DNA of 64,000 bases from Halichondria panicea (lineage: Eukaryota > Porifera > Demospongiae > Suberitida > Halichondriidae): contig NC_087389.1 in NCBI RefSeq assembly GCF_963675165.1, forward strand, positions 4,634,620 to 4,698,619, read 5' to 3'. Made by a program: the position numbers and the translations under genes. The notes beneath the pieces were generated by a model, which saw nothing but the letters and a program-made list of their open reading frames with translations, was not told where the DNA came from and made no database searches. Positions 55,774 to 64,000 of the stretch are shown in pieces. Position 1 is the first letter of the stretch, and each line of letters opens with the position of its first letter.

Positions 55774-57006
55774 CTAATTGTCTTTTTTTGATGCTTTAAT
55801 GAGCTCTCTAACCACATCCTTCCAGCTTCTCGGGTCCTCCCAGCCAATTTCCTTCCTTCCCAGAGCACTTGAATACGTGTGAGACTTGGTCATGAGGTCA
55901 AACATATCGATTCTAAGCATTGGGCTGATAGGGGCTTTTCCAATCACTCTGTACACATACTCATTGAAGTAGACCATAAGCTTCAAGACCCATATTGGAA
56001 TGGAACCACCAACTTCTCCATCTTTCTCAGATGCTACAAATTCGGCAAACTCTCGGTGTGTAAATGAATCTTCGAATCCAACAATGTAAACCTTTCCAGC
56101 AATTTTAGAGGCCAAACCTTCCGCTTGTAACTTTTTCTCGACAAGAAGGTGAATTCTAGCTGCAGTGTCGTTTGGAATAAGCATTTGTTTGTAAAGTCCA
56201 TCACCAAAATACAATAACCCAAAACCTTTGATTGATTTACTGTCAGCAATAAAACAAGGTCGCAAGGCACAGGTTAGAATTCCATCCACGCCATTTGTTC
56301 CAAGTACATTTTTTTCGGCAACTATTTTAGCACTTCCGTAACTCTCCCTAGGTTCTTCCGGATAGGGGGTGGTCTCGTCCAAGTTGTCAACAGTTTGATT
56401 TTTTCGCAACATGGCGTTCACACTACTTGTGTAGATTAGTCTCTTCACTCGAAGTTCCTTACAAACCGATACAATGTTATCTGTTCCAGTGGCAATGACG
56501 TCATAGAAGTCCTGTTTGGTATAGCCGACAAAAGTTGGAATTATGCTTGCAGTGTGGAAAACGACTTCAGCGTCCTTCAGAGCTATTCTCAAACTGTCTT
56601 TATCAAGGATATCGGCTTGAATGTACGAGAACACATCGTCATTTCGAACTTCTTCATCGGGAATGAACAGGTCGAGCGAGTAGATTAGATAGTTTCCATC
56701 TTCTATGAGGCAGCGAACAATCTGTTTGCCAAGACTTCCACTTCCTCCAGTAACAACAGCTTTGATCTTGCCCTCCGATTTCATTGCTTCTGCTTGTTTC
56801 GATTCCACAGTTCGGTAGCTAACTTCTCTTTTTCCTTTGGTCTTTCTTTGTCTGTACATGATGTACATGACTGCAAAGAGCACAGCAAAGAGGAGGATGT
56901 TGGAGAAGCTGCTCAGGGCCCAGCTCCAGGGACGGTAGAGCGGCTCAAACGGATACTCAGTAGTACTCTCTTGACGAGGATTTTTTTTACCCATAGGGCA
57001 AACCAT
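55774..57006 (-). CDS. Membrane-anchored extended SDR (SDR3)
   Basis: Intact single-exon frame of 410 aa. The N-terminus is followed by a hydrophobic helix (SNILLFAVLFAVMYIMY) and a basic flank, suggesting ER or other membrane anchoring with a cytosolic catalytic domain. Motifs: GGSGSLG cofactor loop, IYTSSVNA, and YGSAK as the catalytic Tyr/Lys. The C-terminal region has a hydrophobic segment (IPIWVLKLMVYF) and the family-like end GRKEIGWEDPRSWKDV. It is most similar to SDR2 and more distant from SDR1. Family: 3beta-HSD/NSDHL-type extended SDR; substrate unknown. Confidence 0.86.
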   Translation of the reverse strand: MVCPMGKKNPRQESTTEYPFEPLYRPWSWALSSFSNILLFAVLFAVMYIMYRQRKTKGKREVSYRTVESKQAEAMKSEGKIKAVVTGGSGSLGKQIVRCLIEDGNYLIYSLDLFIPDEEVRNDDVFSYIQADILDKDSLRIALKDAEVVFHTASIIPTFVGYTKQDFYDVIATGTDNIVSVCKELRVKRLIYTSSVNAMLRKNQTVDNLDETTPYPEEPRESYGSAKIVAEKNVLGTNGVDGILTCALRPCFIADSKSIKGFGLLYFGDGLYKQMLIPNDTAARIHLLVEKKLQAEGLASKIAGKVYIVGFEDSFTHREFAEFVASEKDGEVGGSIPIWVLKLMVYFNEYVYRVIGKAPISPMLRIDMFDLMTKSHTYSSALGRKEIGWEDPRSWKDVVRELIKASKKDN

Positions 57007-57744
57007 CTTGTTTGATTTGTCTTATCTTCTTTTACTTAATCTCAAAACTTTCAGAAACGTCGATATTCAGAAGAGGTCAAAGTTGTGCACAGGAAGCTCA
57101 GCCCTTGTAACTTGAAGCCACGCCCATATTTTTCTAGAGGCGTTGCCCATAAATTACTAGTATAAATTATATAGTATCTATGCGTTGCCTTTCTAATGAC
57201 AATGTCATGGCCCCTTATTTGCCGCACAAGATGTACAATCATAGATAGTAGTCCATAGACACTATCTATGGTAGTACAATCGACGGCCGGCTTGCGAGTG
57301 TATCTAGATCTACGTATATAAAATCTCTGTCAAAAAAAGAAATTGCCAAAGACAAAGTACTAGATCTATGGAGATGGGCTTCTCTTCCTGGATTGAACAA
57401 GAGTAGATCATCTTCTGGATTTTTACTGCTTCTCTCGAGCTCTTGTGCACACAACTAAACTGCTGACTAGTCTAGACACAAAAATCTGCGCCAACTCAAC
57501 ACATTTTTAGAGCGTTCAATGGTATTATTTTTTGCACGTGATCTCAACACAACTTCCTGCATACAAGATAAATTGTAAGTCAAAGTATAAGGATATCTCT
57601 GGTCTGATACAGTGAAGTGAGATCTGTTTATTACATATACTACCTTTCCAAGCACCAAGCCCGTCATTTAGATACATTTATGATTGCCTGCCTATACGAT
57701 TATAGTAAAAATACAGGTGCATGGACATTGGACTATAATTATTA
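57007..57744. other. Intergenic, no gene recognised
   Basis: AT-rich. Contains TAGTATCTATG-type motifs also found near 45,740-45,785. Confidence 0.5.
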
Positions 57745-57746
57745 TA

Positions 57747-58045
57747 CAGTAGAACCTCGATTATCCGGACACCTTGGTTCCAGAAGCAGACCGGATAAGT
57801 GAATATGCCGGATAATCGAATATATAAACCACGCCTTGATCCAACCACTTTATTGATAAACAGCAGTGCAGCATGGTTGTCTGCGCATGCGCAGAAGATA
57901 AGCAGGCATGTCTCCATGGTAACAGCTGCAACGCGCATGCGCATTTGGGGGAAACGCCCATTTTCTGATCTGATAAAAAGAAAACTCCCAAGCCGGATAA
58001 TTGAGGTTCCGGATAATGGAGGGCCGGATAATCGAGGTTCTACTG
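57747..58045. mobile_element. Pogo/Tigger-type MITE
   Basis: It begins CAGTAGAACCTCGATTATCC and ends with its reverse complement, GGATAATCGAGGTTCTACTG, flanked by TA on both sides (57745-57746, 58046-58047). This is the typical terminal sequence and target site of pogo/Tigger elements. It is 299 bp and non-coding. Confidence 0.88.
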
Positions 58046-58922
58046 TACTAATTAGGCCTATAAAATATCTTCAGAAACTTGAATTGTACTCTGATATCCA
58101 AGTCTTCTGGGTCAGCTGCTGAGAGTGTAACTGACAGCCTCTTGTCTATGATTATAGGCAGAGTGAAACACAGAAGTCAAGGTGAGTATCTTCAAAAGAC
58201 ATTCAATTTATCACGCGAGTACAGTACCTGTAAAAAAGGGCAGTATAGATATAGAAGTATACTAGCACTACATATAATTTTTTATTGTAAAAGTCGTTTT
58301 GTTTACTGAAGCTTAGTGTATCAAGAAGAGTATGCGACTCCCACGCACATTCCATTCTACATATCGGACTGAATCGTCACTAACACTTGTAGAGTCAGTG
58401 ATCAATAATCGGAGCGATCAATTATCATCAACTTTTTCTCGTGCAAGAGTGACTTACAACAAACACTGGTGCTATACAGAGGTGGACCTGGGTCTAAGCA
58501 GCAGGGATCCCAAAGAAGGCCGCTCAGATTCCTTTACCTCGAAAATAGCATACGCTAGATTGCAAAAACTGGTAATATCAATAGTCACACGATAACGATC
58601 TATCTTCGATTAGCTGCTATAACTTGGCACTCAGTCAGAAACAAAGAATATTCCCTTGCACAAAGATAGAGTAGATACTAAGCTAGCCCTGCACAAAAAC
58701 TGTTCTCCTAGTTTTCAACTTGCTTGCTATTAGAAGCTTTTAAGGTCAACCAGAGTTCATATCATTTTTCGTTCACGCATGCGCACTAAGAAATAAACAC
58801 TCTTTTGTAAATCACTTTTATGGAAATCAGTAAACAGGGGTGAAGCTCCAGCTTAACAGCAAGTCAACAATTCAGCAAATGAACAATTCATGACAACAGT
58901 TTTATCATTACAAAAATACGTT

Positions 58923-59950
58923 TTAAAGTTTGCAGTTTACACATAAAAATGATATTGATGCAGCTGATTTTGATGATACCTTCACACAAATACAATGGTA
59001 CCATTTGGAACATGTATCACAGCTGATCCACTTTTGGGCATTCAAATGGGAACACTTGGCTTGCTCGCAAGGAGAAGCTGCACGGTGGAATGTAATAGTT
59101 ACATACTTTACTCTTTAGAATCATTACCTTTAGTACCACTTAAAGTATGTACACCACTTCGTGCACCCTTGCTCCTAGTTGTGGGAAGTTTCGTGACAGC
59201 ATCAGCTTGCTGACCCTCTATAAAATAGGCAATGCATTCAGTGAAGCACCCTCAAAAAAGAATTACAAATTACCTTTAGTATCACTTGAAGTATGTACAC
59301 CACTTCGTGCACCCTTGCTCCTAGTTGTGGGAAGTTTCGTGGCAGCATCAGCTTGCTGACCCTCTATAAAATAGGCAATTAATGCATTCAGTGAAGCACC
59401 CTCAATAGAATTACAAATTACCTTTAGTACCTCGTGCCTTAATCATAGGGGCAGGATTTTTCAGAGACAATTCAGGATGTCGCCTAGAAAAGGATGTCCA
59501 CCATCCATCAGTCACAGTGCGTGCTACGTCTTTGTAATCTAATAGTCGTTGCACAATAGACATTACTTGCTTCCTAGTTTTTGGATATCCTATTTTTGCA
59601 CAACGAAGCAAAAATGCTTGAAGTTCTTTCTCCTCAACATCACTTAAATATTTTGCTGGCCCACTCTTCGTTCCTGGCTTCACTCTATTGTATACTCTGT
59701 CTCCGAGTGTAGATTTAGGCACATTATACTCTGCTGCTGCCTGAGCAAGTGGAATACCTTTCTCTACAGCTCCAAGGGCGCTTCTCATACTCTCTTCGGT
59801 CCAAAGTTTGTATTTTCCATATCTTGCTTGTGGTGTGACTTTCGGAGGCGTATGAAAATGTCTATTGTGAGATGCACGAAAAATTCTTAGGCGTAGGGGT
59901 TCATCAGTTGATAGGACTTCCATCCAGTCTACATTAAAGGAAAAGAACAA
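58923..59950 (-). CDS. Transposase-derived HTH_psq/CENP-B HTH protein with C-terminal PHD finger, DDE domain absent
   Basis: Inferred exons: about 59950-59422, 59363-59274, 59217-59128, 59077-58923, all joined in phase 1. Exon 1 carries a pipsqueak-type HTH (KYKLWTEESMRSALGAVEKG, PLAQAAAEYNVPKSTLGDRV) and a Tc5/CENP-B-type HTH (LSDVEEKELQAFLLRCAKIG, GWWTSFSRRHPELSLKNPAP). Two near-identical 30-codon exons (EGQQADA..KLPTTRSKGARSG) follow. The last exon gives a PHD-like finger: CEQAKC, WISCDTCSKWYHCICV, FLCVNC, then stop. The region where pogo/Tigger transposases carry the DDE nuclease is absent. A TAG just before the exon 1 Trp-Met-Glu could be an acceptor, so a 5' exon may exist. It could be a non-autonomous transposon gene, an internal-deletion product or a domesticated DNA-binding/chromatin-reader protein. 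Confidence 0.68.
59128..59363 (-). repeat. Tandemly duplicated 90-nt exon
   Basis: Exons 59363-59274 and 59217-59128 are each 90 nt. They share TATAG acceptors and AAAG|GTAAT donors and nearly identical coding (one A/V, one S/L and one D/G change). The flanking intron pieces are duplicated too, in a direct repeat of about 146-150 bp. Confidence 0.8.
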
Positions 59951-59998
59951 TAGCTAATTAGTTTTGTAGCGTCAATGTGACTTTGGGGGATTGTAAAG

Positions 59999-60218
59999 GC
60001 CTGTGTTAGTTGAAAACGTGTTTCTGGTCAGCCACCCGCGTACTCATTTTAGGCCCGCCATTAATGACCATTATTGCCGATGTCAGCTATTATTTAATGA
60101 TGTCATTAACAAACTCCACCCAGAAGGAAGCAAGCAATGGAATAATGGGTAATGACTGCCACCCGCATGCTATTTTGAAAAGTCTTTGACCAGAAACATG
60201 TTTGCAACTAACATAGGC
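59999..60218. mobile_element. Short inverted-repeat MITE nested in the HTH-PHD element
   Basis: The left end GCCTGTGTTAGTTG...GTTTCTGGTCA is mirrored at the right end TGACCAGAAACATG...CAACTAACATAGGC. It is about 220 bp with no ORF. Confidence 0.65.
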
Positions 60219-61073
60219 GCAGCCTAACTTAGTTCCCAGTCAATGTGAGCACCTTAGGGAATTGTAGTTTAACTTAACTTTAACTTAGTTCACACCCATT
60301 TTCTCTACTGCATGCTAGGCCTCCAATTTTATAATGAGAGACTCAGAGTAGGGCCTAGGGGGGATGGGTGGTAAGCCTTAATGTTTAATGTCACAATGAC
60401 ACTATAGATCTACTAGCTAGGACTCTGCTTGTGGTCACTGTTTTCCAAAAACACTCTAGAGAAGTTTATCACTTACCACACTGTTCAGTGATAGATCTGT
60501 GTCAAATACCAGAGATTCTGCTAGGAACTGGACATGGAATGGATTTCTTTATGCCACGAGGCTAGACCAATCTACTACGCATGCGCAACGAAAAATGATA
60601 TGCACTCTGGTTGACCTTAAAAGCTTCTAATAGCAAGCAAGTTGAAAACTAGGAGAACAGTTTTTGTGCAGGGCTAGCTTAGTATCTACTCTATCTTTGT
60701 GCAAGTGAATATTCTTTGTTTCTGACTGAGTGCCAAGTTATAGCAGCTAATCGAAGATAGATCGTTATCGTGTGACTATTGATATTACCAGTTTTTGCAA
60801 TCTAGCGTATGCTATTTTCGAGGTAAAGGAATCTGAGCGGCCTTCTTTGGGATCCTTGCTGCTTAGACCCAGGTCCACCTCTGTATAGCACCAGTGTTTG
60901 TTGTAAGTCACTCTTGCACGAGAAAAAGTTGATGATAATTAATTGCTCCGATTATTGATCGCTTACTCTAGTTGTGTAAACCATAGCAGACCATATGCGT
61001 GTATGCTGATATCTAATTAATACGCACCCACTTAAGATGCGGTCTGATAGTGACGTGGTATGACATACTCCTA

Positions 61074-61804
61074 TAGAGGTTAATTATGCAGATCCGGCCA
61101 AAACTCTCTAAAACTCATTAATTAGGGGGCGTGGTTACATACGTCCGCCATTTTGAGTGGCAAAAAGCACGAGTGGCAAGCAGTAGCAATGTTATTTGCA
61201 AAAGTTTGCAGCTCTACTATGGCTGAGTGTGATGCAGGGAGAGTCTCCAACTACTTTTAAGAACTAGAATAGGGTGCTATAAAGCTATCATGTCAAGAAA
61301 AGGAGCATAAACAACAAGAGAATGGATAAACCATGCAAACCAATTGACTGAATTGTAGATTTATAGAGCTGCACACACATGAAAATGTTTGTCTATATTG
61401 CACTGATTTCTGTTTCCATATATCATGTTTATGTTCAGTATCTCTGCATGGAGAGAGAGCGTCTTGACTCTTTCTGCTTGTGATAGAGTGAATAACAAAA
61501 CGGTAGTTTTGCAACTTTTGTGCTCCCCATTCTTTCTCTTGACTTGCAGCTACCCATCAACTATGGCGTTCTAGATATAGAAGAAAGCAATACAATGAGA
61601 GTCTTGATCCTTTAGAGTGTCTGATTGCATTACCAACAGTGTAGCAGCTCTAACCGTAGCTCAACTTTTAGCATTTAGCCTAGGTATCAAGGTACTTTTT
61701 GCCACTCAAAATGGCGGACATATGTAACCACGCCCCTTTTCCAAGAGTTTTTATGTGGCCACACCCCTTTTTGGCCGGAAGTGGGCGGATTTGCATAACC
61801 TCTA
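61074..61804. mobile_element. TA-flanked MITE with YY1-like motifs in both ends
   Basis: The ends TAGAGGTTAATTATGCAGATC and GGATTTGCATAACCTCTA are inverted, with TA duplications at 61072-61073 and 61805-61806. Inside both ends lie inverted GTGGTTACATAcGTCCGCCA and CCATTTTGAGTGGCAAAAAG blocks. It is 731 bp with no recognisable ORF. Confidence 0.75.
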
Positions 61805-63040: not shown

Positions 63041-63616
63041 GGATGCACCTATGTACAGGCATGTTATATCAGGGGCGTAGCTTAATGGTTTCCTAGTTGC
63101 CCAGAAACCCCCTTGCTTGCTGAAAAATGGGTGGGGCTGATCATGTGCTGAAGTTAATATTGACCACGAGTAGATTAATATCCAGTCTGTATTTATTGTG
63201 CCTATTAGTTACCTTCTGCAATCCAAGATAAGAGACCAAGATCAGCCCAGTTCCTCTACTACTGCTCAGAGTCAGACTCCAGACTGTATTTTACAGTGTA
63301 TACTGCTAATGGCTGGAGACTAGCAAGAGTATGGATTGATATCTAGCCTGGATTTATTTCAATGCCTATTATTAATACTAGTTTAGCTTCTGCAATCCAA
63401 GATAAGAGACCTGATTGTCAGCCCAGTTCCTCTACTGCATGCTCAGACTCCAGACTGCATGTATATGCAGTCTCACCACAATCTGATTCTCAGCCACCAA
63501 CCTCAGAGCTCATGCCCACTGTCAATGTCAATGGTACTGATCTCCTGGTAGTATATTTGTACTTACAACTATAAAGTTTAGGAGATGAGGCCGAGGAGAA
63601 CTGAAGCTGCTGCTAA

Positions 63617-63891
63617 GGCCACTCCAAGTGACACTCTGGTTTCTGGTCCTAAAGTTTTTCTAATTGCATGCGGGCGGGCGGCTTTTCTCATTATGTCATT
63701 ATCAATTTCACCTTATGAATCTCATTATTTTGCAAATGAATATCATTATCACACTATTTTGTACCACATGGACCATTATGCGCATGCGTAGAAGAAATAA
63801 TGGGATAGAAATCCAATAATGAGATAGAAATCCAAGAATAAAATCTGATGCGGGCGGTGGACCAGAAACCAGAGTATCACTTGGAGTGGCC
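63617..63891. mobile_element. Harbinger-like MITE
   Basis: Inverted ends GGCCACTCCAAGTGACACTC and GAGTATCACTTGGAGTGGCC are flanked by TAA on both sides (63614-63616, 63892-63894), as in PIF/Harbinger elements. It is 275 bp and non-coding. Confidence 0.78.
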
Positions 63892-64000
63892 TAAGACTTA
63901 TCAGCCATAAGGGGTGTAACCGGCATAATTAAGGGGCGCGGCACCGGAAGTGGGCGTGGCCTCAAAAAATTTTGCGGCGCTATCGCGCCGCCTTATTTCT

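Follow-up and report, generated by a model that had tools for sequence, protein, structure and literature searches.

Ordinary non-autonomous transposons (MITEs and Ds-like elements) keep their inverted ends and obtain transposase from elsewhere. Transposon-encoded repressors of the KP type are best known from one fly transposon. Two marks of such repressors are described in PMC12393704, namely, a transposase that is interrupted and a DNA-binding domain that is kept; PMC7776569 treats the KP protein (207 aa) and truncated P proteins as repressors, and also has a truncated P protein binding the element. Within the pogo superfamily, most Fot and Fot-like elements have ends of 40 to 60 bp, and ends of 392 to 856 bp are assigned to some unclassified insect pogo elements only (section 8 of PMC7386202). 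The same paper presents POGZ, POGK, CENPB, and TIGD as pogo-derived host genes with DDE_1 sequence, defined by their lack of inverted ends and target-site duplications (TSDs).

The locus described here lies in a 64,000-nt stretch of Halichondria panicea DNA (the window). It is a DNA transposon at window positions 58392 to 60968, with a TA dinucleotide at either side and inverted arms of 391 nt that are 97% complementary, and it descends from a pogo-superfamily transposon by internal deletion. Its features are as follows.

58390..58391, no strand: left TA flank (target-site duplication), the GAGT-adjacent TA being common to 4 of 4 family A copies
58392..58783, plus strand: left terminal inverted repeat, ~390 nt, starting GAGTCAGTGATCAATAATCGG
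58923..59077, minus strand: exon 4, PHD finger and stop (from Pfam PHD, PHD matches, and the four-copy alignment)
59123..59431, minus strand: remnant of a tandem exon array with a unit of ~146 bp
59128..59217, minus strand: exon 3, the second of two linker exons of 90 nt (phase 1-1)
59274..59363, minus strand: exon 2, the first of two linker exons of 90 nt (phase 1-1)
59422..59431, minus strand: deletion junction (59431) and the last 9 to 10 nt of a linker exon, with the donor GT at 59421-59420
59422..59923, minus strand: exon 1, HTH region, with the ATG at 59923 (from Pfam and the joined CDS)
60578..60968, minus strand: right terminal inverted repeat
60969..60970, no strand: right TA flank

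An earlier note on this DNA had placed a gene of four open, phase-1 exons between inverted arms of about 385 bp, and both parts of that description hold: the exon borders are GT/AG sites at precisely the coordinates named there, the internal junctions are all in phase 1, and the four minus-strand exons join into an 837-nt CDS that encodes 278 aa with no internal stop. The predicted protein is ordered HTH_psq, weak HTH_Tnp_Tc5, a basic linker of 30 residues present twice, and PHD. Among the domains named in that note, HTH_psq (E = 2.2e-7) and the C-terminal PHD-like finger (E = 6.5e-6; 26.5 bits against a cut-off of 24) score above the Pfam cut-offs, whereas the CENP-B-type HTH, matched as HTH_Tnp_Tc5, scores below (E = 0.015; 15.7 bits against 22.2), leaving the second HTH (CENP-B/Tc5 type) a weak candidate. 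Exon 4 has the Cys4-His-Cys3 ligands by eye (C-x4-C, C-x2-C, H-x2-C, and C-x2-C), with the first pair read by eye only, as the Pfam PHD alignment begins at profile position 4. The closest matches of this finger are the PHDs of MLL3, KDM5B, KDM5A, and AL1, and it has Trp at both positions aligned to the KDM5A Trp residues, which we take to form the methyl-lysine cage; H3K4me3 is the mark read by the PHDs of KDM5A and AL1. AlphaFold models from single sequences, with a pLDDT of 63.6 for the HTH exon and 69.4 for the PHD, gave no usable Foldseek match, and the PHD model was too poor to bear on the ligand assignment. Searched against PDB sequences, the HTH exon had a single, chance match.

Other features lie close to the transposon, which sits upstream of a minus-strand, 415-aa open frame (55774-57021) that by eye has the look of an NAD-dependent 3-beta-HSD/epimerase with an N-terminal membrane segment. 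A palindromic element at 57745-58049, with ends like TACAGTAGAACCTCGATTATCCGGA, is probably a short non-autonomous element of pogo/Tigger type (by eye), and two more inverted-repeat elements occupy 61126-61736 and 63613-63895 (arms of 45 and 37 nt, respectively).

The window copy aligns to the C9, C16, and C3 copies of the same family (family A) up to window position 59431, where the alignment breaks. At this junction, the parent runs from GCACGAG into CCATAG and the window copy from GCACGAG into GTACTAAAG^GTAATTTG, with one base shared; the new sequence is the last 9 to 10 nt of a linker exon together with its donor. Measured against the C9 copy, the deleted stretch is ~2.1 to 3.4 kb long, its length varying with the array unit that is taken as the counterpart. 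The deletion took the whole DDE region and left the HTH exon running in frame into the end of a linker exon, whose splice donor was kept. Neither a similarity search with the family A DDE nor a DDE_1 profile search finds DDE in the window element, and the earlier note's account, in which the catalytic domain is skipped, has to be replaced: because the alignment to fuller relatives breaks at 59431, the domain was deleted from the DNA, and its removal by splicing is ruled out. The junction pattern has one match in the searched assembly (131 Mb in 39 contigs) with up to three mismatches allowed.

A left-arm search of that assembly returned at least 11 matches, including four two-armed elements (the window, C9, C16, and C3 copies); match counts from searches of this kind are lower bounds. 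All four have TA at both sides, consistent with a TA target-site duplication, and TA+GAGT was seen at the inspected ends of two further families, B and C, described below. Arm divergence among the family A copies is 0.7 to 2.9%, and the HTH exon of the window copy is 98.6 to 99.3% identical to those of its relatives. It differs from C9 by seven substitutions over a 492-nt stretch (six nonsynonymous), from C16 by five over 487 columns (two nonsynonymous, with a 2-nt insertion in C16 besides), and from C3 by one, nonsynonymous, over the 134 nt of HTH retained there. Relative to C9 and C16, two substitutions are private to the window copy, both nonsynonymous and too few for a selection test; a third site, with a different letter in each of these three copies, is synonymous.

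In the C9 copy, a single open frame of 607 aa encodes both HTH and DDE_1; linker exons come next, and then a PHD exon that is damaged. Its DDE_1 match is strong (Pfam E = 1.9e-23), and the catalytic residues, identified by motif, are D210, D316, and D352, with 35 residues between the latter two (DD35D); no HTH_Tnp_Tc5 is listed in this protein at E = 0.01. By eye, the 607-aa frame ends ahead of a donor-like site in another frame, so this copy may not be whole either. Among the four family A loci found, the PHD exon is unbroken in the window copy only (C9 lacks 53 columns, C16 has a 2-nt insertion, and C3 has gaps of 22 and 1 nt), none combines an unbroken DDE with an unbroken PHD exon, and C9, C16, and C3 are each broken in at least one part. 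The C16 copy also holds a nested insertion (L013 4758-7054) with frames of 195 and 501 aa that appear hAT/ZMYM-like by eye. Elsewhere, C12:3245113-3245327 (L009, L015) matches the arm at 68% identity, has no listed HTH or DDE match from the group alongside, and possibly represents a related family with its own ends.

Outside family A, a PHD match lies 3 to 7 kb downstream of a same-strand HTH match at 11 further loci (three on C1, two on C15, and one each on C3, C5, C12, C13, C14, and C16), with 35 to 57% identity to the window PHD. Since DDE is present at all 11, HTH-DDE-PHD is, as judged from these sequences, the usual order in the group and the window copy is the exception; fuller relatives with DDE, which the earlier note had proposed to look for, do exist, the domain lying between HTH and PHD. 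HTH_psq, a weak HTH_Tnp_Tc5, DD35D, and a TA target site together point to a pogo/Fot-like assignment, such that the parent type matches the pogo superfamily and appears closest to the Fot-like elements. The DDE_1 domain with DD35D that belongs to pogo/Fot-like elements is present in the C9 relative and absent from the window copy, which we therefore file as a derivative rather than as a full member.

Family A copies carry a tandem array in which each ~146-bp unit can contain a 90-nt exon (phase 1-1) complete with acceptor and donor sites; units bearing this exon with its donor number 2 of 2 in the window copy, 4 of 6 in C9, 3 of 6 in C16, and 8 of 8 in C3. As such, the basic linker that had been described as duplicated does consist of two units, but these are what remains of a larger array (eight units in C3). 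Other sequence, probably another repeat, interrupts the array of the C9 copy (L012 1681-2461). Array units measure ~275 to 290 bp in family B and ~409 to 423 bp in family C, and the linker exons found by pattern in these two families are 33/36, 111/117, 90/96, 69, and 36/45 nt long, the variants differing by multiples of three. There are two exceptions to this rule (in a decayed copy, an exon of 113 nt that contains stops, and a 131-nt exon in the last unit of family B, which ends in phase 0 ahead of a phase-0 exon), and two family C linker exons have no donor by pattern. Because lengths change in steps of three, these data support the view that the linker units are real exons. Sequence conservation lends no such support: an apparent excess of conservation in exons over introns (3.8% versus 18.5%) proved to be an artefact of array-edge units, the 15 complete family A units showing divergences of 3.6% in exons and 3.1% in introns, and the linker exons of 17 units contain 3 synonymous and 12 nonsynonymous variants.

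Querying the assembly with the HTH exon produced 54 matches, which merged into 51 loci, 15 of them DDE-poor (the 8 kb downstream matches the family A DDE over less than 240 nt); a DDE_1 profile search listed nothing at the 12 loci that have no DDE match at all. At nine of these 15 loci (the window copy, six in family B, and two in family C), the HTH exon is fused in frame just before an array splice donor. The array-exon sequence kept ahead of the donor amounts to 9 to 10 nt in the window copy, 1 to 2 nt in family B, and 1 nt in family C, always in phase 1, and the HTH-side end points differ. The family B loci (C10:2663288, C3:981351, C8:4951355, C5:7311757, C6:782342, and C14:2134050) have the junction GAT G^GTGAGT, read directly at C10, C6, and C14 and from unbroken alignment to C10 at the other three. 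Those of family C are C1:13894476 (TGT ACT TTT G^GTAACG) and C2:7813962 (GAA TAT TTT G^GTAACG), read against a C6 parent whose fetched 3′ part gave no array match; the family C array does occur with a DDE-bearing element at C16 (DDE at 2071790-2072558; array from 2074947, 81%). The fetched family C sequence yielded no PHD motif. Using the family B HTH as a second query (56 matches) added no further donor-fused locus, and the few new places adjoin DDE matches.

The remaining DDE-poor loci were rejected as derivatives of this kind. C12:2333937 keeps a 222-nt DDE match and then passes into other sequence with no donor at the break, and was counted as a disruption; the sequence after the break looks by eye like a small element with inverted repeats, and 779 nt beyond lies a stretch with 76% similarity to window 63610-63798. 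C1:11333042 and C1:12891801 are broken inside the DDE, again with no donor at the break, and are probably the product of one event, as their 5′ flanks are 98% alike. C7, C12:2986009, and C13:3876499 are partial fragments.

Family B is represented by six DDE-less and three DDE-bearing loci among those found. Its C9 parent has a 541-aa HTH-DDE_1 frame and a final 272-aa exon with a C-terminal PHD (E = 1.7e-8). The region ahead of this PHD looks, we presume, like a Ulp1-type cysteine protease (H, D, Q..C motif order); the 272-aa exon has a weak OtDUB match (E = 0.38), and Pfam reports PHD families only, up to E = 0.1. The joining of a protease-like region to a PHD in one exon of a pogo-like transposon (L024 2426-3241) may be of interest in its own right. 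The DDE-less derivative is predicted to encode a 492-aa HTH-linker-protease-like-PHD protein, and the predicted exons are open at four of the six loci (C10, C3, C8, and C5), with C6 and C14 damaged; the C6 copy has two synonymous and five nonsynonymous changes in its HTH and protease-PHD exons, plus a stop. The C3, C5, and C8 copies are 97.9 to 99.96% identical to C10 over ~2.66 kb, with the C3 and C8 elements nearly identical to each other. Because the 5′ flanks of the five loci compared (C10, C3, C8, C5, and C6) differ save for those of C3 and C8 (90% alike over 558 nt), it is very likely that this DDE-less form has transposed since its origin.

We give a probability of roughly 0.5 to the reading that the window element is a deletion derivative able to make a DNA-binding, noncatalytic repressor of the KP type. 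Both marks of that type are found in the window copy, whose transposase coding is interrupted by the internal deletion and whose DNA-binding domain is retained. The element would produce a spliced, 278-aa protein of HTH, linker, and PHD that would bind the inverted ends through its HTH region, would be unable to cut, and would be a competitor of the full transposase, in the manner of the KP protein and the Drosophila P element. Any movement of the element itself would depend on the transposase of fuller copies. The PHD may tether the protein to (methylated) histone H3 tails, and binding to methylated H3 is plausible given its resemblance to the MLL3, KDM5B, KDM5A, and AL1 PHDs and the Trp residues at the KDM5A positions. 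What favors a function is the recurrence of donor-fused junctions across families, and because two related families lost DDE similarly, such DDE-less leftovers may act as brakes on their parent transposons. Several observations count against a repressor: the window copy has no sign of selection (both of its private HTH-exon substitutions are nonsynonymous), the family A linker exons are no better conserved than the introns, and two of six array units in C9 and three of six in C16 are without the 90-nt exon and its donor. The sub-threshold second HTH, the lack of a constraint signal in family B, and the lack of a PHD motif in fetched family C sequence weigh in the same direction.

The strongest alternative for this single copy, to which we assign rather less than an even chance, is that abortive gap repair after excision removed the DDE, that nothing but the recency of this event has kept the frames open, and that any protein made has no role. 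The single junction match, the youth of the element (judged from its arms), and the other three family A copies, each broken somewhere, are all in line with such a neutral origin, as are junctions that by eye share 0 to 1 bp, as in end joining, and the absence of purifying selection from the window copy and over the whole coding sequence of the family B derivatives. It accounts less readily for three families in which the fusion is in frame and falls at a splice donor or close to one, the chance of which is ~7e-6 (10/146 × 4/289 × 3/409) if array-side ends are uniform, a figure with post hoc thresholds and HTH-less copies uncounted; nor does it sit easily with family B derivatives at six loci, four with open frames. 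The earlier note had taken a random deletion product with decayed frames as the outcome that would tell against its proposal: the element did arise by deletion, yet its frames show no decay.

It is improbable, in our estimation, that the DDE-less PHD protein instead helps a fuller transposase, or its own element, to pick sites with methylated H3, with copies that keep it spreading better. The resemblance of the PHD to those of MLL3, KDM5B, KDM5A, and AL1 and its two aligned Trp residues would suit such a partner, as would the excess of DDE-less over DDE-bearing family B loci (six to three among those found). So would a contrast between the C10 and C5 copies, which are free of substitutions over the 1,315 nt of their HTH and protease-PHD exons and differ at 8 of 1,142 noncoding sites; this contrast, however, is post hoc and omits two linker exons with 8 substitutions in 164 nt, and with these included, the comparison of whole coding with noncoding sequence gives a p of 0.62. 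Neither C6 (p of 0.16 against C10) nor C14, in which coding sequence is the more diverged (16/930 versus 8/1,156 noncoding; p of 0.037), shows a contrast of this kind. Constraint on the family B derivatives thus gains no support from whole-coding versus noncoding divergence from C10 at C5, C6, or C14, and purifying selection is suggested by the one post hoc contrast only. Domestication as a host regulator, the other possibility raised in the earlier note, is very improbable despite an open gene that joins DNA-binding and chromatin-reader domains and has no catalytic domain, since both inverted ends and the TA flanks are intact, the HTH exon is nearly identical to those of mobile relatives, and the private changes alter amino acids.

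Returning to the repressor reading, a broader version of it can be put forward only tentatively, and we regard it as less likely than not: pogo-like transposons with a tandem array of symmetric small exons placed between DDE and a C-terminal PHD would repeatedly shed DDE at array donors and so give rise to a selected class of “enzyme-less reader” elements (HTH, array, an optional Cys-protease-like region, and PHD), spread by their parents' transposase and encoding a chromatin-tethered repressor of those parents. The array offers a possible structural reason for in-frame deletions, in that one end falls in a repeat of phase-1 exons with donors. The new non-autonomous class suggested at the outset fares unevenly, as the family A junction is single in the assembly, but the kind recurs at six family B and two family C loci. 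One genome thus holds three related families having DDE-less copies of similar design, with the PHD kept in two; this would make it a testable question whether transposons repeatedly build their own brakes.

Compared with described systems, the element shares HTH_psq and a weak HTH_Tnp_Tc5 (window copy), a DD35D DDE_1 (C9 relative), and a TA target site with pogo/Fot-like transposons. It departs from Fot and Fot-like elements in having ends of ~390 bp rather than the 40 to 60 bp given in PMC7386202, in a tandem linker-exon array and a C-terminal PHD that section 8 of that paper does not mention, and, for the window copy, in having no DDE. With POGZ, POGK, CENPB, and TIGD it has in common a pogo-type DNA-binding region, in some of them joined to other domains, yet it is their opposite on two counts, being without DDE and having inverted ends and TA flanks. 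Unlike MITEs and Ds-like elements, it keeps a complete multi-exon, protein-coding gene model. Our search of the open-access literature returned nothing on point about PHD fingers in transposases of the pogo or Tigger type, which argues weakly for novelty; set against the sources consulted, what is new is the PHD and tandem exon array in pogo-type transposons and the donor-fused, DDE-less derivatives in three families. Another close parallel is the Drosophila KP element, which likewise has an internal deletion, keeps DNA binding, has lost the catalytic part, encodes a short protein, and has fuller relatives. The window copy differs from it in belonging to another superfamily, in that repression by its protein is presumed, and in keeping the C-terminal PHD by way of a downstream splice donor, which predicts a new domain order rather than a simple truncation.
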